This document shows, piece by piece, positions 16,865-49,248 of a stretch of 49,248 bases of DNA; positions within the stretch are counted from its first letter, which is position 1; each line of letters opens with the position of its first letter. This stretch comes from Breznakibacter sp. (lineage in GTDB: Bacteria; Bacteroidota; Bacteroidia; Bacteroidales; Marinilabiliaceae), in NCBI GenBank assembly GCA_018055415.1, contig JAGPHP010000002.1:1-49248 (forward strand), given 5' to 3'. A model generated the notes under the pieces. The model ran no database searches. It saw nothing but the letters and a program-made list of their open reading frames with translations, and was not told the DNA's origin. The translations under genes and the position numbers were made by a program.

Positions 16865-16872
16865 TAAATTTG
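16865..16872 (+). promoter_or_regulatory. -7 box of topA
   Basis: TAAATTTG fits TAnnTTTG, with about 57 bases to the ATG at 16930. The nearest TTTG (16836-16839) is 25 bp upstream, longer than the usual 19-21, so the match is partial. The same GTTATAAATTTG string occurs before porP. Confidence 0.4.
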
Positions 16873-16929
16873 CGGCCTCTAGACTCGTTCATGGAGTCTA
16901 TAAATGCATTTAAAATCACACTTGGTCTG

Positions 16930-19320
16930 ATGGAAGAAAATTTGGTTATAGTTGAGTCCCCTGCTAAAGCAAAGACAATAGAGAAGTTTTTAGGTAAAGA
17001 TTTTCTTGTAAAGTCGAGCTATGGGCATATTCGAGATCTACAAAAAAAAGATTTCGGAATTGATATTGAACACAATTTCGAACCGCAATATATTATTTCG
17101 GATGATAAAAAGGAGATTGTTCGTGAACTGAAGAAATTAGCTAAGTCGGCAAAAATGGTGTGGCTCGCTTCCGATGAAGACCGCGAAGGAGAGGCAATTT
17201 CATGGCATTTGTCCGAAGTATTAGAGCTAAATCCAAATAATACGAAACGCATTGTGTTTCATGAGATTACCAAAGGTGCAATTGAAAATGCAGTTAAAAA
17301 TCCTCGTTCAATAGATAAGAATTTGGTAGATGCGCAACAAGCGCGCCGAGTGTTAGATCGTTTAGTTGGTTTTGAACTCTCTCCGGTATTATGGAAAAAG
17401 GTGAAACCGTCGTTGTCTGCTGGTCGAGTTCAATCAGTTGCTGTGAGACTTATTGTTGAACGTGAGCGTGAAATTTTTGCATTTAATGCCGAATCGTCAT
17501 ATAAAGTTACTGCATTTTTCACTTGGGAAGGTGCTAAAGGGAATAAACAAGAGATTAAAGCTGAGTTATCTCATCGTTTTAAAACGCAGAAAGAAGCTAG
17601 CGCATTTCTCGAGCTTTGTGCCAAGGAGCAATTTCTAGTAGAAGATGTTCAAAAGAAGCCTTTCAAAAAATCTCCAGCTGCGCCATTTACCACTTCGACG
17701 TTGCAACAAGAGGCTAGTCGAAAGTTAGGATATTCAGTGGCTCAAACGATGTCTATAGCTCAAAAATTATATGAGAATGGTTTTATTACCTACATGCGTA
17801 CTGATTCGGTAAATCTTTCGCAAACGGCATTAGATCAGGCTTCTAAAGCAATCGTGGGTTCTATGGGTGAAAAATATCTCTCAATTCGTCACTATAAAAC
17901 AAAATCAAAAGGAGCCCAAGAAGCACATGAGGCTATTCGTCCTACTTACCTCGAGAATGAAAAAATCACTGGTTCGGCAACAGAACAGAAGTTATATGAG
18001 TTAATCTGGAAACGTACTATCGCTTCTCAAATGAGCGACGCACAGATTGAAAAGACAACAATTACGATTGGTGCAAACGGTATTTCTCATTCATTTACGG
18101 CAACTGGTGAGGTTATTAAATTTGATGGATTCTTAAAAGTATATCTTGAGTCGCATGATCATGAACTTGATGAAGAGGAAGATAGCGCTCTTTTACCTCC
18201 TGTTCAAGCAAAAGACCCGCTTGCGTTGAAGAATGCTGAGGCTCGTGAAAGATGGAGCCAAAAGCCACCAAGATATACTGAAGCAAGTCTTGTCCGTAAA
18301 ATGGAGGAACTAGGAATAGGACGTCCATCTACTTACGCGCCAACAATATCTACCATTCAACAGCGTGAATATGTCGTTCGTGAAGATAGACCAGGAGTCG
18401 ATCGTGTTTACAACTTAATAACACTCTCAAAGGGTAAGGTTGAAGCATTTACTAAAACTGAGATTACAGGGGCTGAACGCAGCAAACTGTTCCCAACTGA
18501 TATGGGAATGGTGGTTACGGATTTCTTAGTACGCTATTTTGAAAACGTAGTGAGCTACGATTTTACCGCAAAGGTTGAGAAGGAGTTTGATGAAATTGCT
18601 GAAGGAAAGTTGGTCTGGCAAAAGGCCATTCAAGGTTTTTACACCCCTTTCCATACTCAGGTTGTTGATGCAATAAATACAAGTGAGAGAAATAATGGCG
18701 CTAGAGTGCTGGGTGTGGATCCCACTTCGGGACTTCCAATTTCAGTTCGAATTGGTCGTTTCGGGCCAGTCGTTCAGATAGGTGAGGGGGGGGATGATGA
18801 ACCAAAACCTCGTTTTGCGTCGTTAAGACGAGATCAGCATCTAGAAACAATCACAATTGAAGAGGCGCTGGAATTATTTCGTCTTCCTCGGGAAGTTGGA
18901 GTGTTTGAAGATAAGCCAATTACAGTTGCAATAGGTAAGTTTGGGCCTTATGTTAAACATAATTCATTGTTTGTGTCCCTTAAGAAGAGTGATGATCCAT
19001 ATACCATTGATTTAGAGCGATCGATTGAACTAATTGAGGAGAAGCGAGATAGCGATTCAAAAAAGTTAATCGCTAGTTTTAAAGAAGATCCTGATCTAAC
19101 AATTTTAAACGGTAGATGGGGAGCTTATATTCATTATAAAAAGGATAACGTTAAGATTCCTAAAGGAACTGATGTGGAAAAACTCTCATATGTTGATATT
19201 ATGGCTATTGTTGCAAAAGATAGCAAAGTTGCTGCATCTGCCGCTAAAGCAAAAAAAGTTCCTGCAAAAAGTAGTACAAAGACATCAACAAAGGCCAAGG
19301 TTGTAAAAAAGAAAGCTTAA
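16930..19320 (+). CDS. topA: DNA topoisomerase I (type IA)
   Basis: The 796-residue enzyme relaxes negative supercoils, opposing gyrase. The Toprim domain begins with ENLVIVESPAKAKTIEKFLG and has the acidic SDEDREGEA at 81-89; the catalytic tyrosine is Tyr288 in GFITYMRTDSVNLS; HEAIRPT and GIGRPSTYAPTISTIQ follow. The C-terminus has no Cys4 zinc fingers; it carries two Bacteroidota-type repeats (RIGRFGPVVQIG and AIGKFGPYVKH...) and a Lys/Ala-rich basic tail. ATG 16930 gives the canonical MEENLVIVE start; the frame is open further upstream but a -7 box lies there. The arginase-fold gene follows after 1 bp, so they are cotranscribed. Confidence 0.96.
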   Translation: MEENLVIVESPAKAKTIEKFLGKDFLVKSSYGHIRDLQKKDFGIDIEHNFEPQYIISDDKKEIVRELKKLAKSAKMVWLASDEDREGEAISWHLSEVLELNPNNTKRIVFHEITKGAIENAVKNPRSIDKNLVDAQQARRVLDRLVGFELSPVLWKKVKPSLSAGRVQSVAVRLIVEREREIFAFNAESSYKVTAFFTWEGAKGNKQEIKAELSHRFKTQKEASAFLELCAKEQFLVEDVQKKPFKKSPAAPFTTSTLQQEASRKLGYSVAQTMSIAQKLYENGFITYMRTDSVNLSQTALDQASKAIVGSMGEKYLSIRHYKTKSKGAQEAHEAIRPTYLENEKITGSATEQKLYELIWKRTIASQMSDAQIEKTTITIGANGISHSFTATGEVIKFDGFLKVYLESHDHELDEEEDSALLPPVQAKDPLALKNAEARERWSQKPPRYTEASLVRKMEELGIGRPSTYAPTISTIQQREYVVREDRPGVDRVYNLITLSKGKVEAFTKTEITGAERSKLFPTDMGMVVTDFLVRYFENVVSYDFTAKVEKEFDEIAEGKLVWQKAIQGFYTPFHTQVVDAINTSERNNGARVLGVDPTSGLPISVRIGRFGPVVQIGEGGDDEPKPRFASLRRDQHLETITIEEALELFRLPREVGVFEDKPITVAIGKFGPYVKHNSLFVSLKKSDDPYTIDLERSIELIEEKRDSDSKKLIASFKEDPDLTILNGRWGAYIHYKKDNVKIPKGTDVEKLSYVDIMAIVAKDSKVAASAAKAKKVPAKSSTKTSTKAKVVKKKA

Positions 19321-19321
19321 G

Positions 19322-20488
19322 ATGGAATTTAAAGACTTTTGTGTTCCAGCACGCTTTAATAATCTTAACTTCCCTATAAAGAAAGGTAAAGGAGCGCTCT
19401 TAGATGATGTGAAATTCTTTAGTGGTGAGGAGAATTTCTCTTTAGATGGATTTGACCTTGCCATTATTGGAATTGAAGAGGGAGTTTATTTAGACTCTTC
19501 GTTGGATGATATATTGAGTTCAACCTCAAATTTAATGCGATCATATATTTATCATCTAAAATCAATAGACAATGTAAAGATTGTTGACCTTGGCAATTTA
19601 GTTGGAAAGACAAAAGCAGACAATAAGTTTCTTCTTCTAGAAGTCCTTAGTTTTTTGAATACGAAAGGAATTACAGCTATAATTATTGGAGGAACCGACG
19701 AATTTTGTGTGACACAGTGCGAGGCAGTTCGAGAAATTACCTCCGATGAACGCCTTAATTTAACGATTATTGATTCTTGTATAAATGGTGGTTTTGATGT
19801 TGACGAAGATCTGACAAACAATTATTTAACACCAATTATTGATTTAAAAAACTTCGATCTCACACTTTTAGGGATTCAGAACTATTATAATTCAAAAGTT
19901 CAAGATCTTTATGTTGAAAACAAATTTATAGATGTTATTCGATTAAAAGATCTTAGAGATCAAAATATTATAAATGCAGAAGTTCCATTGCGTGACTCAT
20001 CGGTAATTGTTTTTGATCTGCTCGCTTTCTCTTCATCGTCATTGCCAGCAAACAAAGAGCCGAGGCCTAATGGACTTTCTTCGCTTGATGGATGCCAGTT
20101 AGGATGGTATTCTGGTATTTCTGACAAAGTAAAGAGTTTTTCTGTTTGTAATTTTGAACAGAGTTATGATGTTAATAAGCAGAGTGTTGCACTCGTTGGT
20201 CAGATTATTTGGCACTTTATTTCAGGATTTTCAAATAAATCTCACCAAAATTCGTTAAAAGATGTTACAAGCTTTCAAAAATTTAATGTACATTTGGAGA
20301 AGTATGGTGTTTACATTGATTTTTTTAGTTCACCTGATGGATATAGATGGTGGATGGAAGTGATTGACAATGAGAAGTTTTTGATCGTTTCGTGTAATAA
20401 ATCAGATTATTACGAGGCTCTTCAAGGCGAGATGCCAAAAAAGTGGTGGCGCTATTTTATGCGAAATCAATTTTTGGGAAATAGTTAA
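19322..20488 (+). CDS. Arginase/formimidoylglutamase-fold protein without metal ligands
   Basis: A 388-residue protein with the outline of the ureohydrolase superfamily, but its metal sites are gone. The loop normally GGDH reads GGTDEF, DAHxD reads DSCING, and SxDxDxxDP reads VFDLLAFSSS, so at most one of the usual His/Asp ligands of the Mn pair remains. It is therefore probably not an active formimidoylglutamase or arginase. Two tail motifs, YRWWMEVI and PKKWWRYFMR, look specific. It starts 1 bp after topA and lies 148 bp before porP-gldKLMN. From memory, Bacteroidota genomes with gldK often have an arginase-like gene in this position, which suggests a link to type IX secretion, but this is inference. 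Confidence 0.75.
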   Translation: MEFKDFCVPARFNNLNFPIKKGKGALLDDVKFFSGEENFSLDGFDLAIIGIEEGVYLDSSLDDILSSTSNLMRSYIYHLKSIDNVKIVDLGNLVGKTKADNKFLLLEVLSFLNTKGITAIIIGGTDEFCVTQCEAVREITSDERLNLTIIDSCINGGFDVDEDLTNNYLTPIIDLKNFDLTLLGIQNYYNSKVQDLYVENKFIDVIRLKDLRDQNIINAEVPLRDSSVIVFDLLAFSSSSLPANKEPRPNGLSSLDGCQLGWYSGISDKVKSFSVCNFEQSYDVNKQSVALVGQIIWHFISGFSNKSHQNSLKDVTSFQKFNVHLEKYGVYIDFFSSPDGYRWWMEVIDNEKFLIVSCNKSDYYEALQGEMPKKWWRYFMRNQFLGNS

Positions 20489-20636: not shown

Positions 20637-21611
20637 ATGTTAAGAAGTTTACTTTTTTTTATTTTAATTTGTAACTTCACTGTGGTTGTCGCGCAATACG
20701 AACCTCAGTTTAGTCAAAACTCATTCAATCTATTATCTGTTAATCCAGGTTTTGCTGGAAGTTCAGGTAAAGTGAATCTGACTGGCTTATGGCGCAATCA
20801 GTGGATGGGAATAGAGGGCGCACCGAAAACAACGGTTTTTAGTGCTGATATGGGAGTGAAATTTTTGGGGAATGAACATGGGATAGGATTCAATGCCCTA
20901 CGAGATGAAATCGGTGCCTTTGTGAATTTGAGGCTATCTTTAGCCTATTCGTTTAGAATTGATATAGGAGAAGGTTCTTTGGGCAGTGGTATCTCAATGG
21001 GAGTTATAAATCAAGTTTTGGCAGGAGGTGATTTATATACAGATCCTAAAATGAGCGATGAATCAAATATTGCTATTGGTGAAAGTGGTTACCATATTGA
21101 AGATGGGCTGTTGCAATCCATAAGCGGGGAATTAAATGCAAATACTTTCGATTTAGGAATGGGAGTATTTTATAAAGATAAAAGGATGTATAGCGGCATT
21201 TCGGTAATGCATTTACATCAACCAAGTCTAAATTTGAACGAAAATTTAGATATTCAATTGCAGCGCACGTGGTTTATAACTGGTGGTTATTCATTCTCTT
21301 TGATAGATAAACCTATTGATATTGAACCGCAATTTTTCTTAAAAACAGATGAATCAATATATCAATTAGATATTAGTACAATCTGTAAATTTAAGAAGCG
21401 CTATTGGGGCGGATTATCGTATCGATTACAAGATGCAATTGTTTTGCTCGCTGGATTTGAAATGAAAAATGGAATAAAGGTTGGATATAGTTACGACTTT
21501 ACTACTTCTCACCTAGCGGGTTTTCAAACTCACGAGGTGATGTTTTCTTACTCTTTCACAGTTGGTGTAAGTAAGAAAAGTAAGCATTATAGGAGCGTAA
21601 GGTATCTTTAG
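20637..21611 (+). CDS. porP: PorP/SprF family type IX secretion outer-membrane protein
   Basis: A 324-residue outer-membrane beta-barrel protein with signal peptide 1-19 (ending VVVAQ). The family start QYEPQFSQNSFNLLSVNPGF, with A-G-S-S-G, is clear, and so are LTGLWRNQWMGIEGAPKT, HGIGFNALRDEIGAF, LSLAYSFRI and the C-terminal GGLSYRLQDAIVLLAG...GYSYDFTTS. PorP binds the PorK-PorN rings and the surface-protein anchoring machinery. It leads the operon, 32 bp before gldK, the same order as porPKLMN of Porphyromonas. Confidence 0.92.
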   Translation: MLRSLLFFILICNFTVVVAQYEPQFSQNSFNLLSVNPGFAGSSGKVNLTGLWRNQWMGIEGAPKTTVFSADMGVKFLGNEHGIGFNALRDEIGAFVNLRLSLAYSFRIDIGEGSLGSGISMGVINQVLAGGDLYTDPKMSDESNIAIGESGYHIEDGLLQSISGELNANTFDLGMGVFYKDKRMYSGISVMHLHQPSLNLNENLDIQLQRTWFITGGYSFSLIDKPIDIEPQFFLKTDESIYQLDISTICKFKKRYWGGLSYRLQDAIVLLAGFEMKNGIKVGYSYDFTTSHLAGFQTHEVMFSYSFTVGVSKKSKHYRSVRYL

Positions 21612-21643: not shown

Positions 21644-22987
21644 ATGAAAAAAGTTCTTGCTCTGAGCATCTTATTGATCTCAATTTTGATTGGATGCGGC
21701 CAATCTGGTAGTGGAGAATTGGTTGGCGTTGGCCAATCGGGAGTCTTTTTTGAACCAGACCCATTTGGGATGTTGTTTATTAAGTCAGGAAGTTTTGAAA
21801 TGGGTCCTAACGACCAAGATCTAACTTTCGGAAATACAACTCAAACGAAAACGGTTTCGCTTCGTTCTTTTTGGATGGATGAAACAGAGATTACTAACAA
21901 TGAATATCGCCAGTTTGTGTATTGGGTTCGTGATAGTATCGCTCGTCGTGCATTAGGCGATTCTTTTGAGGATTTCTTAATTACAACTGATGAACTCGGC
22001 AACGAAATCAATCCTCCTTTTCTTGATTGGGAAGTGCCTATTGAATGGGATTCTGAAGAGTACGCTGAACTTCTTGAGCCAATGTTCCTTCCTGAAAACG
22101 AACGCTTTTTTAGAAGGAAAGAGATTGATAGCCGCAAGTTAGTCTATGATTATGAATGGGTTGATCTTGTTCAGGCTGCAAAGAAATCAAATCGTGCTCG
22201 TTTTAGTGACGATACTGGTAAATTTGAAGGCTATCAGGGTGAAGTATATAATCGTAAAGGCGAGAAGATTGAAATTAAAGATAGATCGGCTTTTATTATG
22301 AAAGATGCCGTAAATGTATATCCCGATACTCTTTGTTGGATTGCTGATTTCACATACTCGTTTAATGAGCCTTGGACTGAAAAATATTTTTGGCATCCTG
22401 GTTTTGATGAGTATCCAGTTGTGGGAGTTAGTTGGAAGCAAGCGACTGCATTTTCAATTTGGAGAACTCAGTTGTTGAATAATTTCCTTATTTCAAGAGG
22501 TCAGCCTGAAGTTATGCAATATCGTTTACCTACAGAAGCTGAATGGGAATATGCTGCTCGCGGTGGTCTCGCAAATGGTTCTTATCCTTGGGGTGGATAT
22601 TATACTCGTAATAATCAAGGTTGTTTCTTAGCTAACTTTAAACCTTTAAGAGGACGTTATGGCGATGATGGCGCAATGAGTACTGCTGTTGTTGGAACTT
22701 ATGCTCCAAATGATTTTGGACTATACGACATGGCTGGAAACGTAGCTGAGTGGACCTCTGGTGCTTTTGATGAATCAAACTACTCTTTTACCCACGATTT
22801 TAATCCTAATTATAAGTATAATGCATTGCCAGAAGATCCTCATGTTATGAAACGTAAGGTTATTAAAGGTGGTTCGTGGAAAGATATTGCCTACTTTATG
22901 CAATGTGGTTCAAGAACTTATGAGTATCAAGACTCTTCTAAGTCTTACATTGGATTCCGTTGTGTTAGAGATTATCTAGGTGATTAG
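21644..22987 (+). CDS. gldK: Type IX secretion lipoprotein GldK/PorK
   Basis: A 447-residue outer-membrane lipoprotein that forms, with GldN/PorN, the periplasmic ring of the type IX system. Signal peptide ends LIGC with Cys18 lipidated. The rest is a formylglycine-generating-enzyme (sulfatase-modifying) fold: FIKSGSFEMGP, MDETEITNNEYRQFVYWVRD, YRLPTEAEWEYAARGG, FGLYDMAGNVAEWTSG, VIKGGSWKD and SYIGFRCVRD. In this family the fold is structural, without enzyme activity. It has the long insert typical of GldK (roughly 100-210). Spacing to gldL is 60 bp. Confidence 0.95.
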   Translation: MKKVLALSILLISILIGCGQSGSGELVGVGQSGVFFEPDPFGMLFIKSGSFEMGPNDQDLTFGNTTQTKTVSLRSFWMDETEITNNEYRQFVYWVRDSIARRALGDSFEDFLITTDELGNEINPPFLDWEVPIEWDSEEYAELLEPMFLPENERFFRRKEIDSRKLVYDYEWVDLVQAAKKSNRARFSDDTGKFEGYQGEVYNRKGEKIEIKDRSAFIMKDAVNVYPDTLCWIADFTYSFNEPWTEKYFWHPGFDEYPVVGVSWKQATAFSIWRTQLLNNFLISRGQPEVMQYRLPTEAEWEYAARGGLANGSYPWGGYYTRNNQGCFLANFKPLRGRYGDDGAMSTAVVGTYAPNDFGLYDMAGNVAEWTSGAFDESNYSFTHDFNPNYKYNALPEDPHVMKRKVIKGGSWKDIAYFMQCGSRTYEYQDSSKSYIGFRCVRDYLGD

Positions 22988-23047: not shown

Positions 23048-24031
23048 ATGAGTTTTAGCATTACCGAATTTGTTGAGAGCCCAGCTTACAAAAAAACTAT
23101 GGGCAAGGTTTATGGTTTAGGAGCAGCTGTCGTGATCTTAGGAGCACTTTGGAAAATCCTTCACTTACCTGGTGCAAGCTATATGCTTATTGCTGGTCTT
23201 GGAACTGAGGCGGTTATTTTTGCCCTTTCGGCATTTGAACCACCTCATGCTATGCCAGATTGGACATTGGTTTATCCTGAACTTATAGGTCTTGAATCTA
23301 CTCATGATCGTAAAAGTCACGGTGGTGGCGGAGGCGGCGGAAGTGAATTAGCCGCTTTGATTCAAAGTGGTAAGTTAGATTCCGCTACAGTTGATAAGTT
23401 GTCTGATGGATTAAAAAAGTTGACTCACACAACTGGTCAACTCGCTGATTTGAGTAATGCAACTATTGCTACGGAGAGTTATCTTCAAAATATGCGTAAC
23501 GCTTCTGATAGTGTCGGTCAATTAGCTTCGGTTCAGAATAAGAGTACAAAGGCAATTCAAGACTCTTCACTTGAGTTATCTGAGGCTTACAATAATGTTG
23601 CAAAATCAATTTCTGAGTCTGGAACCTCGGTTGCAAATGATATTTCAAAAAGTGGAAAATTATTTGTTCAATCTATTGAGAGTTCTCGTGAAGGAATGTT
23701 ATCTTCATATCAATCTCTTAACGAGAGTTTGGCTGCTCAGGCTGAACATGTTACAAAGGGAGGTCGTAACTTCTCAGAACAGCTTGATGGGATAGGAAAG
23801 AATTTATCATCAATTAATTCTATCTATGAGTTACAAATCAAAGGTTTAAATAGCCAGTTACATGTAACAGAAGAGTTAAATAAAGGTATCGATGATATCC
23901 GAACTCAGATGGTTGCATCTGTTTCAGATGTTAAGAATTATAGAGAACAAGTAGGCAAGTTAAGTAGTAGTATCTCTGAATTGAATACAATTTATGGAAA
24001 CATGCTTAGTGTTATGAATGTTAGTAAATAA
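23048..24031 (+). CDS. gldL: Type IX secretion motor protein GldL/PorL
   Basis: A 327-residue inner-membrane protein that with GldM forms the proton-driven motor. Two membrane helices lie at about 21-38 and 44-62; the second holds a glutamate in GLGTEAVIFALSAFEPP (Glu54, with Glu64 just after), the kind of membrane carboxylate needed for proton coupling in GldL. Then comes a poly-glycine run (G7 at about 92-98), and a long cytoplasmic coiled-coil region rich in S/N/Q. Lengths of GldL vary much; this one is in the range of PorL (about 310). Confidence 0.95.
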   Translation: MSFSITEFVESPAYKKTMGKVYGLGAAVVILGALWKILHLPGASYMLIAGLGTEAVIFALSAFEPPHAMPDWTLVYPELIGLESTHDRKSHGGGGGGGSELAALIQSGKLDSATVDKLSDGLKKLTHTTGQLADLSNATIATESYLQNMRNASDSVGQLASVQNKSTKAIQDSSLELSEAYNNVAKSISESGTSVANDISKSGKLFVQSIESSREGMLSSYQSLNESLAAQAEHVTKGGRNFSEQLDGIGKNLSSINSIYELQIKGLNSQLHVTEELNKGIDDIRTQMVASVSDVKNYREQVGKLSSSISELNTIYGNMLSVMNVSK

Positions 24032-24051: not shown

Positions 24052-25611
24052 ATGAGTGGTGGTAATTGCCCAGAAACGCCTAGACAGAAGATGATAGGTA
24101 TGATGTACCTATTTTTGACAGCGATGCTAGCGCTTAATGTTTCGGGAGACTTATTGAATGCTTTTGTTCTTGTTGATAATAGCATTAAGGATGCAACACG
24201 TGTTGTAGAAAGTAAGAATAGTATTACTTCTGCAGATTTTGATATGGTGTATAATTCTAATCAGAATAAGTCTAAAGAGAGATATGAGCAGAGTAAGAAA
24301 GTTCAGGTTGCTGCAGACTCTCTTTTTAGCTTAATTCAATCATATAAGAGTTTGGTTGTTAGAAAAGCTGATGGTCCTGGTTTTACACCTGATTCATTTG
24401 CTTCAAAAGATAATCAGGATATTGTTCCTCAGGTGATGTTGGTTGAAGAAGGTGGTGGCCGTAGCGAGAAATTGAAGAAATCGATAGAGGAATATCGATC
24501 TTTACTACTTGGTTTTGTGGATGAAGATGATAAAGTTTTTAAGAAAAATATTGAGTCTATTCTAAATACTGATAATCCGCCTAAGAAAGATGGTGTTAGT
24601 GTTAGTTGGGCAGAACAAAAGTTTTTGCATTTGCCAATGGCTGCGTCAATGGCTCTTTTAAGTAAATTACAGAGTGATGTTAGGAATAGTCAGGCTGATA
24701 TGAATAGATATCTCCTTGGAAAAGTTGATGAGAAATCATTTAAGTTTACTTCTGTAGCACCTCTAGTAATACCTAAATCGCAATATGTTTTAAAGGGAAA
24801 TAAGTACTATGCTGAGATTATGATGGCAGCAACAGATACTACTGCTCCTCCAAAAGTTAATATTCAAGGATCATTATTACCAACAAAAAGCGGAAAGGCA
24901 ATTTATGAGGTTGGAACCCCATCTGTTGGACAAAGAAGTTGGGAAGGTTCTATTACATTTAATGGACCAGATGGCCAACCACAAACTTTAACTATCCCTA
25001 AACAGGAGTATTTTATCATTGAACCAACAGTAGTAATCTCTCCAGTTAAGATGAATGTGTTTTATGAAGGTGTAGATAATCCAGTTCGAGTTTCTGTCCC
25101 AGGGGTTGCACCATCTCAATTACAAATTAGTTGGACTAATGTTTCTGCAAAACCTGATGGTGATCAATGGATTATTAGACCAAATCCTGGTAGTGCTGGT
25201 ATGAAATGTGAAGTTTCGGTGGCTGTAAAACAAGGCTCATCTTTACAGCGTTTAGGAGTCATGGATTTCCGAATCAAACGTGTACCCGATCCGGTGGCTA
25301 AAGTGGCTAAATTACGTGAGGGTAAAATCAAAAAAACTACACTTGTAGCGCAGGCTGGGGTTTTTGCTGAGATGGATCAGTTCGATTTTGAATTAGAGTT
25401 TAAAGTGACTGCTTTTACCGTTTCCACGCTTAGGGGTGGTTATTTAAAGGAGGTACCAACGCAGGGTAATTTGTTCTCAAAAGATCAACAAGAATTAATA
25501 AAGGGTTTGTCACCAGGAGCAAAAGTCTTTTTTGATCAGATTAAGGCTGTAAGTGCCTCTAATTCTGCGGATAGACGATCTTTGGGTGCTATAACTTTAA
25601 CTATTGAATAA
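24052..25611 (+). CDS. gldM: Type IX secretion motor protein GldM/PorM
   Basis: A 519-residue inner-membrane protein that spans the periplasm as a dimer and couples the GldL motor to the GldK-GldN ring. One N-terminal membrane helix (MIGMMYLFLTAMLALNVSGD, about 13-32) after MSGGNCPETPRQK, then a helical bundle and beta-sandwich domains D2-D4 (for example YVLKGNKYYAEIMMAATDTT, VVISPVKMNVFYEGVDNPV). It starts 20 bp after gldL. The family-typical N-terminus MSGGxxxPRQKMIGMMYL makes the assignment very secure. Confidence 0.96.
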   Translation: MSGGNCPETPRQKMIGMMYLFLTAMLALNVSGDLLNAFVLVDNSIKDATRVVESKNSITSADFDMVYNSNQNKSKERYEQSKKVQVAADSLFSLIQSYKSLVVRKADGPGFTPDSFASKDNQDIVPQVMLVEEGGGRSEKLKKSIEEYRSLLLGFVDEDDKVFKKNIESILNTDNPPKKDGVSVSWAEQKFLHLPMAASMALLSKLQSDVRNSQADMNRYLLGKVDEKSFKFTSVAPLVIPKSQYVLKGNKYYAEIMMAATDTTAPPKVNIQGSLLPTKSGKAIYEVGTPSVGQRSWEGSITFNGPDGQPQTLTIPKQEYFIIEPTVVISPVKMNVFYEGVDNPVRVSVPGVAPSQLQISWTNVSAKPDGDQWIIRPNPGSAGMKCEVSVAVKQGSSLQRLGVMDFRIKRVPDPVAKVAKLREGKIKKTTLVAQAGVFAEMDQFDFELEFKVTAFTVSTLRGGYLKEVPTQGNLFSKDQQELIKGLSPGAKVFFDQIKAVSASNSADRRSLGAITLTIE

Positions 25612-25627
25612 TTTAAAATTCACCATA

Positions 25628-26479
25628 ATGAAAAATAGTCGTTTTATTGTCTCGCTTTTATTTTCGCTGTTTGCTATTTCTTTAGTTTTCGGTCAGGATA
25701 AGACTATACTTGATGGTATTTATAAAAAGGAACATACTCCTAATAAAAAGCCAATTCCTTATGCTTATGTGCGTGAAGCCGATGTCTATTGGAGTAAGAA
25801 AGTTTGGCGAATAATTGATCTTCGCGAAAAGATTAATATGCCTATGTATTATCCTTCAAAAGCGATGGATGGTAGAAAGAGTTTGATTGATGTTTTGATA
25901 GATGCAATCAAGTATGAAGGTTTACAAGCCTATTCAGATAATGATGACGAGTTTAAACAAGCCATCAATATTGATCAGGTTAGTCAAGCTATGGGTGCTA
26001 TAAATGATACTACTGATGTTCAGGATCCAAGTACTGGATTATGGAGTAAAAAGGTTGTGTTGGGCGATATTAAATATCATGAGGTAAAACAGGTACTTGT
26101 AAAAGAGATTTGGTTCTTTGATAGAAATTATTCAAAGCTAGATGTTAGAATTATCGGTATATGTCCAATACGTGATATGGTAAAGACAACAGGCGGAGTT
26201 GATGAAATTGTTAAAAAGCAAGTTTTTTGGGTTTATTTCCCTGCTGCTAGAGATGTGTTATCAAGATATGAGGTATTTAATCCCAAAGGTGATTCTCAGA
26301 GATTATCTTATGATGACATTTTCATGAAGCGATATTTTAGTAGCTATATCACTGCGGAGTCTAATGTTTATGACAACAGACCAATTGAGATGTATTCAGT
26401 AGGTATGCAAAGTATGGTGGAATCGGATCGCATAAAGAACGATATTGCCACTTTTGAGCATGATCTGTGGGAGTTTTAA
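25628..26479 (+). CDS. gldN: Type IX secretion protein GldN/PorN
   Basis: A 283-residue periplasmic protein with signal peptide 1-23 (MKNSRFIVSLLFSLFAISLVFG, cleaved before Q). The family features are seen: PYAYVREADVYWSKKVWRIIDLREKINMP, YYPS, SLIDVLIDAI and YKE-type charged strands, then EVKQVLVKEIWFFDRNYS and VRIIGICPIRDM. It completes the ring with GldK. ATG 25628 is chosen because it begins the signal peptide; the ATG-like start at 25604 would overlap gldM and add nothing. It is the last gene of the operon and is followed 4 bases later by the palindromic terminator. Confidence 0.95.
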   Translation: MKNSRFIVSLLFSLFAISLVFGQDKTILDGIYKKEHTPNKKPIPYAYVREADVYWSKKVWRIIDLREKINMPMYYPSKAMDGRKSLIDVLIDAIKYEGLQAYSDNDDEFKQAINIDQVSQAMGAINDTTDVQDPSTGLWSKKVVLGDIKYHEVKQVLVKEIWFFDRNYSKLDVRIIGICPIRDMVKTTGGVDEIVKKQVFWVYFPAARDVLSRYEVFNPKGDSQRLSYDDIFMKRYFSSYITAESNVYDNRPIEMYSVGMQSMVESDRIKNDIATFEHDLWEF

Positions 26480-32484: not shown

Positions 32485-33294
32485 ATGGAGAAAAGCAAGG
32501 TATTATTTATTTCTCAAGAGATTACACCTTATTTGCCAGAGACCGATATTTCTTTGATCGGAAGGAATTTACCGCAGGGCATACAAGAGAGAAGTAAAGA
32601 GATTAGGACTTTTATGCCACGTTTTGGTTGTATCAATGAGCGCAGAAACCAATTACATGAGGTAATTCGTCTCTCTGGTATGAATTTGATAATAAATGAT
32701 ACAGATCATCCATTATTAATAAAAGTTGCCTCAATTCAAGCTGCACGCATGCAGGTATATTTTATCGACAATGAAGATTTCTTCTATAGAAAGGCAACGC
32801 TGTATGACGCTGATGGTAATGAGTTTGAAGATAATGACGAGAGGATAATCTTTTTTGCTAGAGGTGTTTTAGAAACTACCAAAAAATTACGTTGGAGTCC
32901 TGATCTAGTTCATTGTCAGGGTTGGTTTACTGCTTTAGCACCCCTTTATATTAAGCGAGTGATGAATGAGGATCCACATTTTGCGAATAGCAAAGTTATT
33001 TATACCATCTACAATGACGACTTTAAAAGCGTTTTTACCGACGATTTTAAAGAAAAATTGATACTTCCAGGTGTTTTAAAATCGGATCTTGCGGTTTTAG
33101 ATCGTTGCGATTACGTTAGCTTACAAAAGCTAGCTATTAATTTTGCTGATGGGGTAATTTTTGGAAGCGAGACAATAAATAGCGAGTTAGAAAGTTATGT
33201 GAAAGAGAGTGGAATCCCATTTTTAACATTCCAACATCCTGAGAATTACATTGATAGTTATAATGCTTTTTACGATAGAATTCTTAACAAATAG
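32485..33294 (+). CDS. Glycogen/starch-synthase-like GT5 N-terminal half protein, degenerate
   Basis: A 269-residue protein that resembles only the N-terminal Rossmann domain of GT5 glycogen synthases: VLFISQEITPYLPETDISLIG, then PRFG, DNEDFF, and VHCQGWFTALAPLYIK, ending near HPENYIDSYNAFYDRIL. The second (GT1) nucleotide-sugar domain is missing, the K-T-G-G-L ADP-glucose loop reads ETDIS, and the HAHDW site reads HCQGW. It cannot be a normal glycogen synthase, though databases often call such proteins so. It shares a transcript with the DUF4270 gene, which begins 4 bp later. A regulatory or structural role is possible; function unknown. Confidence 0.75.
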   Translation: MEKSKVLFISQEITPYLPETDISLIGRNLPQGIQERSKEIRTFMPRFGCINERRNQLHEVIRLSGMNLIINDTDHPLLIKVASIQAARMQVYFIDNEDFFYRKATLYDADGNEFEDNDERIIFFARGVLETTKKLRWSPDLVHCQGWFTALAPLYIKRVMNEDPHFANSKVIYTIYNDDFKSVFTDDFKEKLILPGVLKSDLAVLDRCDYVSLQKLAINFADGVIFGSETINSELESYVKESGIPFLTFQHPENYIDSYNAFYDRILNK

Positions 33295-33298
33295 ATTG

Positions 33299-34774
33299 AT
33301 GATCTCGATATTTTCAAATAAAATTTCGCTTTTCCTTTTAGTCGGTTTAACAGCACTTCTGTTCAGTTGTAAAGATGATGCCATGTTGGCTGGTAAAGAT
33401 CTATTACCAGAGGAGTATAACCTTAATGGGTATAGCCGAGAGGTGAGTGGTATTATTGCGGAGAATACAACGCGAGATTCTATAAAAAGTGATCAGGTAA
33501 CTTATGCTATACTGGGTGACTTTACTGATGAAATTTTTGGAAAGTCTGTTGGTGCTTTTGTTGGGCAAGTTTATAAAGGAGCCGTTATTGATTCGATCAG
33601 TTTAAATCGTCCCAAATTTTCGGTGGATTCGATGGTGTTCTTATCTGTGCATAATTATGGTGATTGGTATGGATTGGGAAATGAGTCTCATAGAATAAAA
33701 GTTTATGAACTAACAGAAACACTTAGTAATGGGTTGGATGTTTATTATTCTAACTTCAACATGGAGGGGAAATATGACACTACACCTATTGGCGAAGGTG
33801 AACTAAAAGGAAACTCATTAGATAGTGCTTCATGGGTGTTGAATAAATATGTTGACACGCTACGTGTGAAGATACGACAAGATGTGGCAACTCGTTTTTT
33901 TGAGAATTTTACTCGTGAGATGTCTTCAAATAATTCTCAATTTCTTGATTTTTTTAAAGGAATATATATTACTAGCGAATGGAAAACAGGAGATGGGCAG
34001 GGAAGTTTAGTGAGATGTAGGGTGATGGGAAGTACATTAGGTTTAAAATTATATTACAACTATGATGCAGACCCTAGCGATACCGTTAAAGTTCATTACT
34101 CTCATATATTTCCAATTACACGAGATGGTGTAACTTTTAATAAATACGAGCACACCATAAATCCTAACATTAAATTAGATAATCCAGTAACAGATAATCT
34201 TTATGCTCAAGGTATGGCTGGCAGTTATGTAAAAGTTACTCTTCCTGAAGATGACCTAACGGATTATGGTGATTCGTTGAGTATAAATACACCTGGTGAA
34301 CGGGTTGCTTTTTCAAATGTTACTTTAGAGTTTTTTGTTGATACAGCTGCATCAAAGATATCTAGTTATACACTGCCAGATTCATTAACACTTTATCGTT
34401 TTAATGATTATGAAAAGTCTGATATCAATAACGATTTGAGTAACGATAAGATTGAAGCCCCTTTCTATTATGTAAAGGTTGAAGGAGAAACTCCTGTTAA
34501 GATGTATAAACCTGTTATAGGAGGTGCGTTAAATAAGTCAACTTACTCTTATAAATTTACGATTGACAACGAATTTTTTAAACGTATTGTTACTCGAGAT
34601 GATTTAATTGACAAAGATAATCAGCTAGGATTGGGAAATGAAGATGACTTTAAAGTTTTGTATATAGGCCCTAATAATCCTGTACAAAATTTCAGGAGAG
34701 TCATTCTTTATGGTCAAAATCGTACTGATGGTAAGGTTGGTGTGAAAATGAAGATTAGGACTGTTAAATACTGA
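33299..34774 (+). CDS. DUF4270 lipoprotein
   Basis: A 491-residue secreted lipoprotein; the signal peptide ends ALLFSC with Cys22 followed by KDDAM, an acidic surface-export-type signal. The body is beta-rich with the DUF4270 features: an N-terminal ILGDFTDEIFGKSVGAFVGQ block, SISLNRPKF, VYELTETLSNG, FDLK-type strands and the end LNRSYSFKF-like ALNKSTYSYKFTI with RVILYGQN. Start ATG 33299 fits the signal; longer upstream starts overlap the preceding gene. Function unknown; the constant neighbourhood with the half glycogen-synthase and glmS suggests an envelope role. Confidence 0.8.
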   Translation: MISIFSNKISLFLLVGLTALLFSCKDDAMLAGKDLLPEEYNLNGYSREVSGIIAENTTRDSIKSDQVTYAILGDFTDEIFGKSVGAFVGQVYKGAVIDSISLNRPKFSVDSMVFLSVHNYGDWYGLGNESHRIKVYELTETLSNGLDVYYSNFNMEGKYDTTPIGEGELKGNSLDSASWVLNKYVDTLRVKIRQDVATRFFENFTREMSSNNSQFLDFFKGIYITSEWKTGDGQGSLVRCRVMGSTLGLKLYYNYDADPSDTVKVHYSHIFPITRDGVTFNKYEHTINPNIKLDNPVTDNLYAQGMAGSYVKVTLPEDDLTDYGDSLSINTPGERVAFSNVTLEFFVDTAASKISSYTLPDSLTLYRFNDYEKSDINNDLSNDKIEAPFYYVKVEGETPVKMYKPVIGGALNKSTYSYKFTIDNEFFKRIVTRDDLIDKDNQLGLGNEDDFKVLYIGPNNPVQNFRRVILYGQNRTDGKVGVKMKIRTVKY

Positions 34775-34850: not shown

Positions 34851-36812
34851 ATGAGTAGTGTTTTTCGTAATTTAACGGTTAGTGAAGTTGAGTCTTTAAA
34901 AGTTAATGGTTGTGATGCTACCGATTGGAGTTTGGTGAAAGTGGCCGATTCATTTAACTCACAATGTATTAGAAATGTACAGTTTGAGGGTGAAGTAAAG
35001 ATTGGGAAATTGGGTGAATCTCTGCGAATAGGGGGAGTTTTAAGACGCTCAGGAATTTATAATTCTATTATTGTTGAGAGTTTTATTGGAGATAAGTGTT
35101 TTATTAACAACGTTACTGGAGGACTTGTTCGAGTTGTAGTTGAAGATGGTGTTGTGATTGACAATTGTTATAGCATCGAATGTGACGGCACAACAACATT
35201 TGGTAATGGCACTAAGGTTGCTGTTCTAAATGAAGCTGGAGGCAGAGAGGTTTTGATATTTGATCGTTTATCTGCACAGCTTTCCTATATTCTTACATTT
35301 TATAGATATCAAACATCTGTAATATCAAAAATTGAAACACTAATATCTAAATATGTTCAGTCAAAGCGTTCTCCTAAATCGCTTATTGAAAAAGGTTCTG
35401 TTTTAACGAACTGTCAGAAAATTAAGAATGTTAATATTGGATCATTTGCAATATTAGATTCGGTTCAGAGTTTAAATAATGGAACAATTGTTAGTACCCT
35501 CAATAGACCAACCAAAATAGGTTGTAATGTTATTGCTAAGGATTTTATCTTTTTAAAAGGATCTGTCGTTGAGGATGGCTCCAATTTATCAAAGTGCTTT
35601 GTTGGAGAGTCCACAATAGTTTCAAAAGGTTATAGTGCCGATAATTCTATCTTCCACGCAAATGGTCAGTTCTACAATGGTGAGGCATGCTCTGTATATG
35701 CTGGGGCACATACGGTAACACATCACAAATCTACATTACTTATTGGTGGAGCTTTCTCATTTTATAATGCAGGTAGTGGAACCAATCAGAGCAATCATAT
35801 GTACAAACTTGGTCCTGTACATCAAGGTGTAACTGAGCGAGGAGTTAAAACAGGAAGCGATTCGTATCTGCTTTGGCCCGCACATGTTGGCTCTTTCTCG
35901 GTTGTCTTAGGAAAGCATTACAACCATCCTGATGTTGCAGATCTTCCATTTTCTTATTTGATTGAGAAGGATGGAGAGAGTGTTTTGTTCCCGGGATTGA
36001 ATTTTAAGACCATTGGCAATTATCGCGATGTGCTAAAGTGGAGAAAGAGAGATCAGCGAGATTCGAGCAGTCTAGATGTGATAGATTATGAATTTCCAAA
36101 TTGGTATATTATAGAGAAGTTGGTTAGAGGATTGGCTATTTTAAAATCGATTCAGGCCTCAAAAGAGTCATCACAATATAACTATAAAGGTGTTACAATT
36201 AGTTCGAGTAGCCTTTCTGGTGGGATAAAAATCTATCAGCAAGCAATTGTCTATTATTTGGGTTTAAAATTTGTAAATATCGAGAATCAGTTTGAACGTT
36301 TACTCCTTGATCCTAAAATTGATCTTTTAAAAGATCTATCTATGCCTGAAGTCATTGATTTAGGCGGAATGTTTGCCGATAAAGGGAAGTTAATAATTCG
36401 TTTGGAAGCAAGTTCTACCTATCGATCGATTGATGAACTATTACTTGAGATTAAAGGTTGTAGATTGACATTTAGCTCATTAGATGAGATTTTCTTTATA
36501 CGAAAGTATATATGGGATACATTTGGGCCAAAGGCAACATGGGAGGTGAAATTGAGCGCTTTTTTAAAAGATTTTATTGCAAGTGTCAAGTCTATTCATT
36601 CTGGAATTGTTGCAGATGCAAAGAAAGAGTTCAACAGTGCATCTCGAATAGGATTTGGCATTGATGGTGATGGAGCTGATGTTGAGAATGATTTTTGCAA
36701 AGTCAGAGGTGTTTTTGACTCGATAGATGAGATTAAAGAATTGAATGATCACGAGGAGCAGCTAATAAAAAGGGCTGAGATTTATTTAGTTTCGGTAAGA
36801 AATAACAATTAA
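34851..36812 (+). CDS. DUF4954 protein with left-handed beta-helix
   Basis: A 653-residue cytoplasmic protein without signal peptide. The N-terminal half contains hexapeptide-like repeats (IYNSIIVESFIGDKCFINNV, VVEDGVVIDNCYSIECDG, TTFGNGTKVAVLNEAGGREV), the pattern of a left-handed beta-helix as in sugar-nucleotide acyl- and uridyltransferases; residues around 280-370 carry the highly conserved GAHTVTHHKSTLLIGG and FYNAGSGTNQSNHMYKLGP. The C-terminal third is helical. The family is Bacteroidota-specific and uncharacterised. Its stop is 3 bp from glmS, so a role beside amino-sugar synthesis is a reasonable but untested idea. Confidence 0.8.
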   Translation: MSSVFRNLTVSEVESLKVNGCDATDWSLVKVADSFNSQCIRNVQFEGEVKIGKLGESLRIGGVLRRSGIYNSIIVESFIGDKCFINNVTGGLVRVVVEDGVVIDNCYSIECDGTTTFGNGTKVAVLNEAGGREVLIFDRLSAQLSYILTFYRYQTSVISKIETLISKYVQSKRSPKSLIEKGSVLTNCQKIKNVNIGSFAILDSVQSLNNGTIVSTLNRPTKIGCNVIAKDFIFLKGSVVEDGSNLSKCFVGESTIVSKGYSADNSIFHANGQFYNGEACSVYAGAHTVTHHKSTLLIGGAFSFYNAGSGTNQSNHMYKLGPVHQGVTERGVKTGSDSYLLWPAHVGSFSVVLGKHYNHPDVADLPFSYLIEKDGESVLFPGLNFKTIGNYRDVLKWRKRDQRDSSSLDVIDYEFPNWYIIEKLVRGLAILKSIQASKESSQYNYKGVTISSSSLSGGIKIYQQAIVYYLGLKFVNIENQFERLLLDPKIDLLKDLSMPEVIDLGGMFADKGKLIIRLEASSTYRSIDELLLEIKGCRLTFSSLDEIFFIRKYIWDTFGPKATWEVKLSAFLKDFIASVKSIHSGIVADAKKEFNSASRIGFGIDGDGADVENDFCKVRGVFDSIDEIKELNDHEEQLIKRAEIYLVSVRNNN

Positions 36813-45442: not shown

Positions 45443-48400
45443 TTATTCTGAAAAAATAGTCTTTGGAAGTTCAATAAAAAAAGTAGATCCCTTTCCAACG
45501 GTTGATTCTACCCAAGCTTTGCCTTTATGCTTATCAACAATTCGTTTTACGAGACTTAGTCCAAGGCCTTCGCCAACAAGTTGATTATCAACTCTAAAGA
45601 ATACATCCCAAATCTTGGTTAGGTGTCTTGGTTCAATTCCGATTCCATTATCAGAGATTGCATAAATAACTTTATTATATTTTGTTTTAGCAGTGATGGT
45701 AATTTCGAGATTTCGAGATTCGTCTCTATATTTTATGGCATTGGTTAAAATATTCGAGAATAGTTGATTTAAAAGATGATAATCTCCAAAGCAATTTGGC
45801 AACTCATCTACTAAAACTTTAGCTCCAATTTCGGTTAGTTGAAAGTTTAGAGAGGCGATAATGGTATCGATTATTTGTTTCATCGAAACCTCGTTAATGG
45901 TCATTTTTAGTCGTCCTGCTCTCGAAATTTGAAGCAGTCCGTTTATCAAGGAGTCCATCTTTGTAATATTGGTAAGGATGTATTCTAGAGATTTTGGTAT
46001 AGACTCATCGGTGATTTTTGAAATTTCGTCTCTTTTGGCCGTATCTAACTCACATAAAGCAGCAATCTCTTTTATGGCCGAGGTTTGTTTTTGTAACCTG
46101 AGGCTAAATCCTTGTATGTTAACTAAAGGAGTTCTTAAGTCGTGAGAAGTGATGTATAGATAATTCTCAAGCTCTTTGTTTTTTTCAATAATGGTTTCTT
46201 GAACCAATTTAAGTGAGGTGATGTCTGTTGATATGGTTGCAAAACTATTTTTGTGTGGAGAGACAGCCGAAACCATAAAGTGTCTGTCGAGCTTTGGATC
46301 ATAGATTTGATAATCAAATGGTTCTCCAGTGATGGCAACATTTACTAGATCTTTGAAGTATGGTAAGTTGCTATTTTGGAATATCTCCGATCCTTTTCGA
46401 TTAATAACATCTTCTCTAGAGATTCCCATAATATCAGTAAATGCTTTATTGCAATCTCTTATTTGATAATCTATGGGCTCATTATTCGCATCAAATAGTA
46501 GCTCGTTAAGAAGAACCATTTCAGTCATTGAGCTAAAAAGTGTGCGTAGTTTTCTCTCACTTTCATTGAGTGCTTCGGTAGCTTTTTGGCTAACCATTTC
46601 AGCCGAGATTCGGTCCACAAAGATGTTGAAGAAGGAGGTTAAGTTGTCTGTTTCTACAATGGGTTTTGTGTTTAATCCAACCAAAATTCCAATGACATGA
46701 TCGCTTTTGTCTTTAATAGGAATGCCAACATACCCTTCAATGTCCATTATTTTAAGAAGGTCATCTTTAGGGAACTTCTCTTGCACGCTCTCGAGGAAGT
46801 GACAAATGTTGCTATCTGAGACAATTGCGCAAGGGGTGTTGCTCAAATTGTACTGCATAGCTCCCATTGGCGCTCCTAGGGCGCATCCTCCCAGCACATT
46901 TACTTCATTGGTTTTGTGTATTATTTGTCCAACAAAGACATAATCGAGATTTAGAAGAGAGGAGATGTGGCTACAAACAGCCTCGTAGAAAGGTTTTCCT
47001 GAGAGAGATGCATAATTTGTAGCTAAACTCTTTAATGCAATTTCAGCTTTTTTCCGTTGTGTAATATTTGTGATGATACCATTGTAAATAACCTCCTCTT
47101 TTTCAATTTTAGGATGCGATACAATTTGTATCCAAACAGTTCCGTTAGTTGTAACGATGCGGCCTTCAAAATTCAATTCGCTCCTTTCTAAAATAGTTTT
47201 CTCGCTCGATTTTATATAGGCTTCTTTGTCGTCGGGATGTAATAATTGAGTAAAAACTTCGTCAAAATTAAAGATGTCGATTTTAATACCAATGACCTCT
47301 TCAATTTTTGGACTTATATAGTAATATCCCTTTGTTTTATCGTCACGTACGAAGAGTTGGAAAATAATTCCTGGAACATTGGCGGCCATCTCCATAAAAC
47401 GTGACTCACTTTCTCGAATAATCTCTTCGGCCAATTTCCTGTCTGTAATATCTTCAATAACACCATCGTAGGCGATTAGGTTTTGTTCTGAGTCGTATTT
47501 GAAGATGATAGAATTACTAATCCAACGAATTTGTCCGTTTTTGCATTTTATTCGATGTTCAAAAGGAGATATTAATTTGCCTTGTATGGCTTTAAGCGTT
47601 TTTTCAATTACGTTATCTCTATCCTGTTCTACAACCATTTCAAACCAAAGATTTGGATTTGAAACAAACTCTTCAGGAGTATAACCAGTGATGGCAAGGC
47701 ATGTTTCATTGTGCTTTGTTTCAATGGGTTTCCCATTTTGAATTGTCACGGTATAAACATAATCTGTTACTCCTGCTAGAATACGCTTGTATCTATCTTC
47801 GCTTTCAATAAGTCTGTTTTCGGCATTTTTACGCTCGGTAATATTCGTGATGATGCCATTGTACCTTGTTTCATCTTCAAAGAGAGATGGTCGAGAGTTT
47901 ACTTCAACCCATTGCACTCCTCTAGGGGTTAGAACACGACCTTCAAAATGAAATGTTGCCTGACGAAGGTAAGCGTCGCTCATCTCAAACACAAATCGTT
48001 CTCTATCATCAGGATGAATAATTTGTTCAAGATTCATCTCGGTCCAATGACTTACATTGTTTTGTAGAGCGAGAATCTCTTCTGCTTTTGGGCTGATATA
48101 ATGAAATCCACGAACACCGCTATGTGTAATGTAATATTGATAGATAATGCCCGGAGAGTTCATGACCATGTCGGAGAACATGTCGTTACTATCTTTCAGG
48201 CGTTTTTCAGCTTCAACGCGGGCTGTGATATCTCTTAGTGAGGAGTGTATTTCGCATCGATTATTTGAATTAGGGATCTCAACAATTTTATTGAAGACTT
48301 CAAACCAGCGATAGATCTCATTTTGACTCTCTAATCGAATATTAAAGGATGATGATTCTTGAGCCGTTTTTGGCCAGAATGCATGTTTCGAATCGCTTGG

Positions 48401-49248
48401 ATGAATTAATTCATAAATTGATTTTCCGATCAGATCATCAGGTTGGTATCCCAAAAGCGTTTTGCATGCTGGGGAGACATATAAAAGAGTGTTATCTAAA
48501 GATTGTCTAAGAATGATGTCGGAGGAGTTTTCGGCTAAGAGGCGGAACATGATCTCACTTTTTAGAAGCTCCTCTTTTGCGAAAAATTCAAGCGAGCTGT
48601 AGTGAAATATCGCACGAGAAACAATAATACCACTCAGTAAAATAAGAAGAAACGAGAGTACGATTAATGGATTTTGAAGTGGATTAAAGTCTTGAAATAG
48701 CGCAATGTCGAGGCCAACAAAAATGAGCCAAATTGTAATGGCAACGATGTTCGTATAGAGCAATATTTTTTGATTTTGCTTGTATGCTCTTATTTCTTTC
48801 AGTCCAAGGAGTTTTCTGATAATAGGAACTTTTAAGGAGGTTTCGGCAATAATTGTTAGAAAAATGATGGTGATAACATCTTTAAAAAGAATAGAGTTAA
48901 TTACCTCTTGTGGAAATATGTTTATGGTTTGTGATGTCCAGAAGGCTGGGTTTAATTTGAGCAGAAGGTTTAAAAATAATTTCTCTTGAATGAGAATGGT
49001 TATTGATGAGATTGCGATGGAGTAGATGAGTCGCCTAACAAGTGAAGATTCTATTTTAGTGGCTTTAGGATGATAGAGGAGGCCAACATTATAGAATATT
49101 GCCGTGTACATGAGAGCGTTTCCAATATTGGCATATCCATCTTCTGGCCATAAAAGAAAAGGGGACAGGGCTGCACCCGAGAGGGAGCAAATAATGGCAT
49201 ACCTCCATCCAAAGCCAATACTTAAAATCATTGGAAGAAGTAGTGACC
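45443..49248 (-). CDS. Multi-PAS/GAF membrane sensor histidine kinase, 5' end beyond the window
   Basis: At least 1267 residues are visible; the frame is open past the ATG at 49231 to the window edge (SLLLPMILS...), so the start is outside. An N-terminal multi-helix membrane domain (first about 210 residues; MASE-like, not named with confidence) is followed by four PAS domains with PAC ends (GIITNITERK, YDGVIEDITDRK, GIITNITQRK), a GAF domain (about 735-890), a fifth PAS, HisKA (ITSHDLRTPLVNIQGF) and HATPase (DNGIG, GEGLGLSLVKR). It is likely the main sensor of the operon; the signals are unknown. Confidence 0.88.
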   Translation of the reverse strand, partial: SLLLPMILSIGFGWRYAIICSLSGAALSPFLLWPEDGYANIGNALMYTAIFYNVGLLYHPKATKIESSLVRRLIYSIAISSITILIQEKLFLNLLLKLNPAFWTSQTINIFPQEVINSILFKDVITIIFLTIIAETSLKVPIIRKLLGLKEIRAYKQNQKILLYTNIVAITIWLIFVGLDIALFQDFNPLQNPLIVLSFLLILLSGIIVSRAIFHYSSLEFFAKEELLKSEIMFRLLAENSSDIILRQSLDNTLLYVSPACKTLLGYQPDDLIGKSIYELIHPSDSKHAFWPKTAQESSSFNIRLESQNEIYRWFEVFNKIVEIPNSNNRCEIHSSLRDITARVEAEKRLKDSNDMFSDMVMNSPGIIYQYYITHSGVRGFHYISPKAEEILALQNNVSHWTEMNLEQIIHPDDRERFVFEMSDAYLRQATFHFEGRVLTPRGVQWVEVNSRPSLFEDETRYNGIITNITERKNAENRLIESEDRYKRILAGVTDYVYTVTIQNGKPIETKHNETCLAITGYTPEEFVSNPNLWFEMVVEQDRDNVIEKTLKAIQGKLISPFEHRIKCKNGQIRWISNSIIFKYDSEQNLIAYDGVIEDITDRKLAEEIIRESESRFMEMAANVPGIIFQLFVRDDKTKGYYYISPKIEEVIGIKIDIFNFDEVFTQLLHPDDKEAYIKSSEKTILERSELNFEGRIVTTNGTVWIQIVSHPKIEKEEVIYNGIITNITQRKKAEIALKSLATNYASLSGKPFYEAVCSHISSLLNLDYVFVGQIIHKTNEVNVLGGCALGAPMGAMQYNLSNTPCAIVSDSNICHFLESVQEKFPKDDLLKIMDIEGYVGIPIKDKSDHVIGILVGLNTKPIVETDNLTSFFNIFVDRISAEMVSQKATEALNESERKLRTLFSSMTEMVLLNELLFDANNEPIDYQIRDCNKAFTDIMGISREDVINRKGSEIFQNSNLPYFKDLVNVAITGEPFDYQIYDPKLDRHFMVSAVSPHKNSFATISTDITSLKLVQETIIEKNKELENYLYITSHDLRTPLVNIQGFSLRLQKQTSAIKEIAALCELDTAKRDEISKITDESIPKSLEYILTNITKMDSLINGLLQISRAGRLKMTINEVSMKQIIDTIIASLNFQLTEIGAKVLVDELPNCFGDYHLLNQLFSNILTNAIKYRDESRNLEITITAKTKYNKVIYAISDNGIGIEPRHLTKIWDVFFRVDNQLVGEGLGLSLVKRIVDKHKGKAWVESTVGKGSTFFIELPKTIFSE

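Follow-up and report, generated by a model that had tools for sequence, protein, structure and literature searches.

Between a DNA topoisomerase gene and the type IX secretion motor genes of a Breznakibacter genome lies a gene that an earlier note had read as a catalytically dead arginase-fold paralogue and as a possible component or regulator of secretion. What does this gene encode, and does its place beside the secretion core reflect its function? Both questions were addressed in the window (the whole stretch of DNA analysed, 49,248 nucleotides of contig JAGPHP010000002.1, assembly GCA_018055415.1) and in related genomes.

The topA–ArgL–porP–gldKLMN locus

The open reading frame at 19322..20488 (+ strand, stop included) has an ATG start, encodes 388 residues and is supported by an AlphaFold2 model and by orthologues; we call its product ArgL, a ureohydrolase-fold pseudoenzyme. 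The earlier note had placed it correctly: a single base pair separates its ATG from the stop of the upstream DNA topoisomerase I gene, topA (16870..19320, +; the TTG start was set mechanically and the true start may lie downstream), and 148 bp separate it from a porP/sprF family gene (20637..21611, +; PF11751, 9.9e-61; TIGR03519, over cut-off). The secretion genes follow in order: gldK/porK (21644..22987, +; TIGR03525, 588.8 bits against a cut-off of 350), gldL/porL (23048..24031, +; TIGR03513, 190.4 bits), gldM/porM (24052..25611, +; TIGR03517, 344.4 bits) and gldN/porN (25604..26479, +; TIGR03523, 204.3 bits). The short intergenic spacing suggests that ArgL is cotranscribed with topA. An Rfam search of the window gave no match, and a putative Bacteroidota −7 box precedes porP in 9 of 28 loci, compared with 4.4 expected by shuffling. 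Elsewhere in the window, a starch-synthase-domain frame (32485–33294) and a DUF4270 frame (33251–34774) overlap by 44 bases, the second start perhaps being listed too early; 34851–36812 encodes a strongly matching DUF4954/DUF6819 protein of 653 residues, whose function is not known, and 45443–49231 (−) a histidine kinase of 1262 residues with several PAS domains.

Orthologues of ArgL were found in 31 of 41 relatives, the window genome counted in, and in 141 of 148 genomes sampled across the class Bacteroidia (fragments at contig ends counted). Within the window's order, 119 of 169 genomes carry the gene. It stands directly behind topA in 95 of the 105 order genomes in which both are listed (about 90%), and gldK comes directly after it in 65 of the 115 in which gldK is listed. 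In 77 of 141 carriers across the class (about 55%), gldK follows ArgL within 5 kb, mostly at a distance of about 1.2 kb, the room that one porP gene would take, and the full order topA–ArgL–porP–gldKLMN recurs in many contigs labelled Bacteroidales or Flavobacteriales. Judged from this gene order, the linkage of ArgL to both topA and gldK is real and old. Intergenic distances run from 1 to 184 bp (median 27) on the topA side and from 95 to 435 bp on the porP side; by spacing, ArgL is thus bound more closely to topA than to porP and the genes that follow. The coupling to topA has exceptions: at the Solitalea and Mucilaginibacter loci neither topA nor gldK flanks ArgL. We also looked for a shared alternative neighbour where ArgL stands away from gldK and rejected the idea: the neighbours vary, among them NAD-epimerase and HAD/ACT-domain genes, a histidine kinase, a sigma factor and polysaccharide export genes.

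The tight and frequent coupling to topA would be expected if ArgL served topA, in DNA topology or in expression, and if the porP–gldKLMN neighbourhood were inherited order devoid of functional meaning. Distribution speaks against this: topA is present in 168 of the 169 order genomes, whereas ArgL is absent from 50, and some lineages keep ArgL away from topA. We regard a topA-service role as improbable.

A ureohydrolase fold with an altered metal site

ArgL was modelled with AlphaFold2 from an 80-sequence alignment (pLDDT 86.6, pTM 0.89). The closest structure in the PDB is Trypanosoma cruzi formiminoglutamase (4myn; Z 32.5, rmsd 2.4 Å over 270 residues, model residues 21–307), followed in order by Bacillus subtilis HutG, metformin hydrolase, guanidinase, agmatinases and arginases. 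The window protein alone has no Pfam match, and 79 of the 80 aligned relatives match PF00491 (Arginase), the best at 1.1e-31. ArgL is confidently predicted to belong to the ureohydrolase (arginase) superfamily by fold, a three-layer α/β/α arrangement, which bears out the arginase fold proposed earlier. This domain spans residues of about 21–308 (19382..20245, +), as delimited by alignment of residues 21–307 to 4myn, 4mxr and 2a0m.

The same note had held that the length is kept, which is wrong because a C-terminal domain was added: residues of about 310–388 (20249..20485, +) are modelled as four strands and two helices, the folded part covering about 316–388, and canonical homologues of the same phylum end at about 305–340 residues. 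The added stretch of ~80 residues contains F334, W344 and C358, invariant among ArgL relatives, and the near-invariant R342 and W343. Folded alone, it reached a pLDDT of 79.4. Searches with it returned no convincing sequence match and no PDB or Pfam relative, and Foldseek gave nothing below E 0.001 (the highest VIA Z was 3.7), a result that does not establish a new fold.

All three metal-binding motifs are altered, as had been claimed. Motif 1 (residues 123–127, 19688..19702, +) reads GGTDE where the canonical form is GG[GD]H[DS] (GGDHS or GGGHD) and the ArgL consensus GG[SG]QD; motif 2 (residues 151–155, 19772..19786, +) has changed from DxHxD to DSCIN, and motif 3 (residues 232–234, 20015..20023, +) from FDxD to FDLL. 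Yet the two bridging aspartates, D151 and D232, are kept. In the numbering of rat arginase I, D151 corresponds to D124, D232 to D232 and the position of N155 to D128; the equivalents of rat H126 and D234, the ligands private to metal B, are both lost. Residue 277 (20150..20152, +), the position of the substrate-binding Glu of ureohydrolases (Glu277 in rat arginase I), is Asn in the window protein.

Conservation at these sites was counted over 169 sequences of the ArgL family. The motif-1 His position holds Gln in 154 of them and His in 7; Asp151 is present in 168; the His of DxHxD (H126 equivalent) has become variable and is no longer a conserved ligand; the second Asp of that motif (residue 155) is kept in 154 and replaced by Asn in 15, including the window. 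Asp232 occurs in all 169, and the second Asp of DxD (D234 equivalent) is lost. Of 90 relatives, 72 have Glu at position 277. Compared with this family, the window protein has degenerated further: it carries N155 for D, D126 for Q and N277 for E. Metal A would keep two or three aspartates and metal B would be left with neither private ligand. The binuclear site of active ureohydrolases (H, DxHxD, DxD) is not found in the ArgL clade, and the predicted site does not retain a full manganese centre. The clade-wide loss of the metal-B ligands in an intact fold supports, at the level of sequence, the reading of ArgL as a pseudoenzyme. A change in motif 1 alone would not be diagnostic of inactivity, because formiminoglutamases also do without that His: motif 1 of B. 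subtilis HutG is GGDNS in the profile alignment, and the T. cruzi enzyme has a natural Asn114 (PDB title, 4myn).

Several polar residues of ArgL (R73, D100, D151, Q186, R207, E220, R224 and D232) are invariant or nearly so among relatives, which suggests a retained ligand pocket rather than a bare scaffold; by alignment to the family, these residues would lie in that pocket. The same conservation could be taken to mean that ArgL is an active enzyme of changed chemistry, with one metal ion or none at Asp151/Asp155/Asp232. Most relatives keep D151, D155, D232 and Glu277, an Asp cluster and a Glu that could still support mononuclear catalysis, and formiminoglutamases tolerate the loss of the motif-1 His. 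Both metal-B-only ligands are nevertheless gone throughout the clade, and conserved catalysis fits poorly because the window protein has also lost D155 and E277 while its gene stays intact. We consider an active enzyme rather unlikely.

That ArgL might be a true formimidoylglutamase of histidine breakdown is suggested by its nearest solved structures, which are formiminoglutamases (T. cruzi 4mxr, 4myn and 2a0m; B. subtilis HutG 3m1r; Z 30.6–32.5 over about 270 residues), and by hutG being the best NCBIfam match, below cut-off, in all 80 relatives. HutG enzymes share with ArgL the fold and the missing motif-1 His and are its best sequence-profile match; they keep DxHxD and DxD and end after the ureohydrolase domain, whereas ArgL lacks the metal-B ligands, carries the C-terminal domain and is also found where the Hut pathway is missing. 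The window protein scores 22.3 bits to TIGR01227 (hutG), far below the equivalog cut-off of 229.15, and no urocanase (hutU) turned up in the window genome or in 22 other ArgL carriers of the order (23 of 119), so that occurrence does not follow the histidine-utilisation pathway. With the metal ligands lost, the score below cut-off and no urocanase found, the annotation is untenable for the window, and we hold it to be extremely improbable as a reading of ArgL. Within the order, the urocanase of genome G658 (C52:150131-151738) scores 843 bits where nearly all others score about 380–460, which points to two distinct urocanase types.

Pseudo-ureohydrolases as such are already known. One kind is the MetCb/MefH-β subunit of metformin hydrolase, like ArgL a pseudoenzyme with a degenerate metal site; this subunit has lost four of the six ligands, yet the enzyme needs it to be active (PMC11399263, PMC11271267). 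The best fold matches of ArgL include metformin hydrolase chains, and ArgL might by analogy be the inactive partner of an active ureohydrolase. The active partner of MetCb/MefH-β is encoded alongside, whereas no PF00491 match was found in the window genome, which is 88% complete, and most genomes of the class gave a single match; ArgL also carries its extra domain. Because no other ureohydrolase was found in the window genome, such a partner role is very improbable, and the term paralogue used in the earlier note does not apply there. The other precedent is an arginase-like protein from Trypanosoma brucei that lacks a binuclear manganese cluster (Hai et al. 2015, as cited in PMC11271267 and PMC10820115). 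It shares with ArgL a conserved fold, the loss of metal ligands and the lack of an assigned function; it is one protozoan protein, whereas ArgL forms a bacterial family across the class, with an added domain of its own and a conserved gene order. In the open-licence literature we found no class-wide bacterial pseudo-ureohydrolase family with an added domain heading a secretion-motor cluster, and no paper joining gldK with formimidoylglutamase or formimidoylglutamase with Flavobacterium gliding; matches for gldK with topA, gldK with arginase and type IX secretion with arginase seemed incidental by title and abstract.

The family appears to have a single origin. Fifteen canonical homologues of the same phylum carry motifs of the GG[GS][HN], DxHxD (DTHLN in one) and FDxD type and end with the ureohydrolase domain; in a tree with 29 ArgL sequences, a branch with SH-aLRT 100 sets the latter apart from them. 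In a phylum-wide search, the full-length matches among those listed fall inside the class Bacteroidia, and those from elsewhere end near position 308, like canonical enzymes. Because this supported clade, the motifs and the tail all divide the two groups, loss of metal B and gain of the tail are most simply explained as one event before the class spread. Seven close ArgL pairs with usable dS gave dN/dS values of about 0.03–0.17, indicative of purifying selection.

Distribution across the type IX secretion system

The possibility that ArgL belongs to type IX secretion as a component or as a dedicated regulator, for example as a cytoplasmic partner of the GldL motor, was examined through the distribution of the gene. 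Besides the frequent adjacency of gldK, co-occurrence favours this: all 119 ArgL carriers of the order have GldK and 117 have GldD, and ArgL is absent from all 10 GldK-negative genomes. The outcome that the earlier note had named as refuting its proposal, equal frequency in species lacking the system, thus did not occur. In the class sample GldK scores over its cut-off in 141 genomes; two ArgL carriers lack it, both of them fragmented assemblies.

The converse does not hold. ArgL is missing from 40 of the 159 GldK-positive order genomes, and also from three high-quality genomes of family f29, in which GldL is strong. Relatives from the window's own family (G003, G005, G014, G018 and G023) likewise have GldL and no match to the window protein, an absence that is less sure because these genomes were searched with that single protein rather than with a profile. 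In six of the 40 order genomes topA and gldK are adjacent and no ArgL-family gene was found (loci L173, L175, L180, L194, L196 and L212 in genomes G607, G662, G584, G039, G606 and G680, respectively); judged by spacing, they look about as if ArgL alone were missing, or ArgL and porP in the case of G039. In genome G403 (C1:2263430-2263999), a GldK-like match lies inside an open frame of 2885 residues beside a GldL match; this may be an unusual fusion or a long read-through.

Raw Fisher tests over the order genomes associated ArgL with GldK (p = 2.6e-6), hutU (1.4e-6) and GldD (6.7e-10). Since hutU is as strongly associated as GldK, these values mostly reflect shared ancestry, and we dropped them as support. 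Mapped on a tree of TopA from 81 genomes, the presence of ArgL switches 9 times and that of GldK 5 times, and every genome without GldK also lacks ArgL; tests on independent pairs, controlled for the tree (4–9 contrasts), gave no significant association of ArgL with GldK, hutU or GldD. The idea of a gliding rather than a secretion gene was set aside as well: GldD is found in 117 of 119 carriers but also in 31 non-carriers, and its tree-controlled test was not significant.

The phylogenetic profile against GldK is therefore mixed. Within the order, ArgL is absent where the system is absent and is not present wherever the system is present. The 40 GldK-positive genomes without it, family f29 and the null tree tests together contradict a core role in secretion; the lack of ArgL from all 10 GldK-negative genomes leaves room for an accessory one, so that any link to secretion or gliding is at most accessory. 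The proposal that ArgL belongs to the secretion system could at most survive in that accessory form. As a component or dedicated regulator in the stricter sense, with topA adjacency also more constant than gldK adjacency, we consider ArgL unlikely.

A proposed role for ArgL

The reading we favour, though we give it slightly less than an even chance, is that ArgL is a non-catalytic, ligand-binding adaptor or regulator expressed together with topA, with a possible accessory link to secretion or gliding. The protein has kept the ureohydrolase fold and the two bridging aspartates, has lost the His and the Asp of metal B, and has gained a tail. No signal peptide is apparent by eye, and ArgL would be cytoplasmic. 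It would not hydrolyse guanidino or formimino compounds; the old active-site pocket would instead bind a single metal ion or a small ligand, and the added C-terminal domain would contact a partner protein. Translated with topA, ArgL would act as an adaptor or regulator that senses a ligand. In lineages with ArgL at the head of the secretion-motor cluster, it might, more conjecturally, modulate type IX secretion or gliding without being required for either.

ArgL occurs in almost every Bacteroidia genome, is under strong selection and lies beside topA and the secretion motor genes, and its function is undescribed. Databases would name it an arginase or a formimidoylglutamase, a name that the lost metal ligands contradict. 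The family illustrates clearly how a single, ancient inactivation of an enzyme went along with the gain of a domain, and the genomes in which topA and gldK are neighbours and ArgL is missing provide a ready-made comparison for its function. A bolder proposal, which we think decidedly unlikely as it stands, is that this class-wide cytoplasmic pseudo-ureohydrolase senses a small metabolite in its former active site and uses the added C-terminal domain to adjust the GldLM motor or the expression of that motor; if so, secretion and gliding would respond to metabolism.
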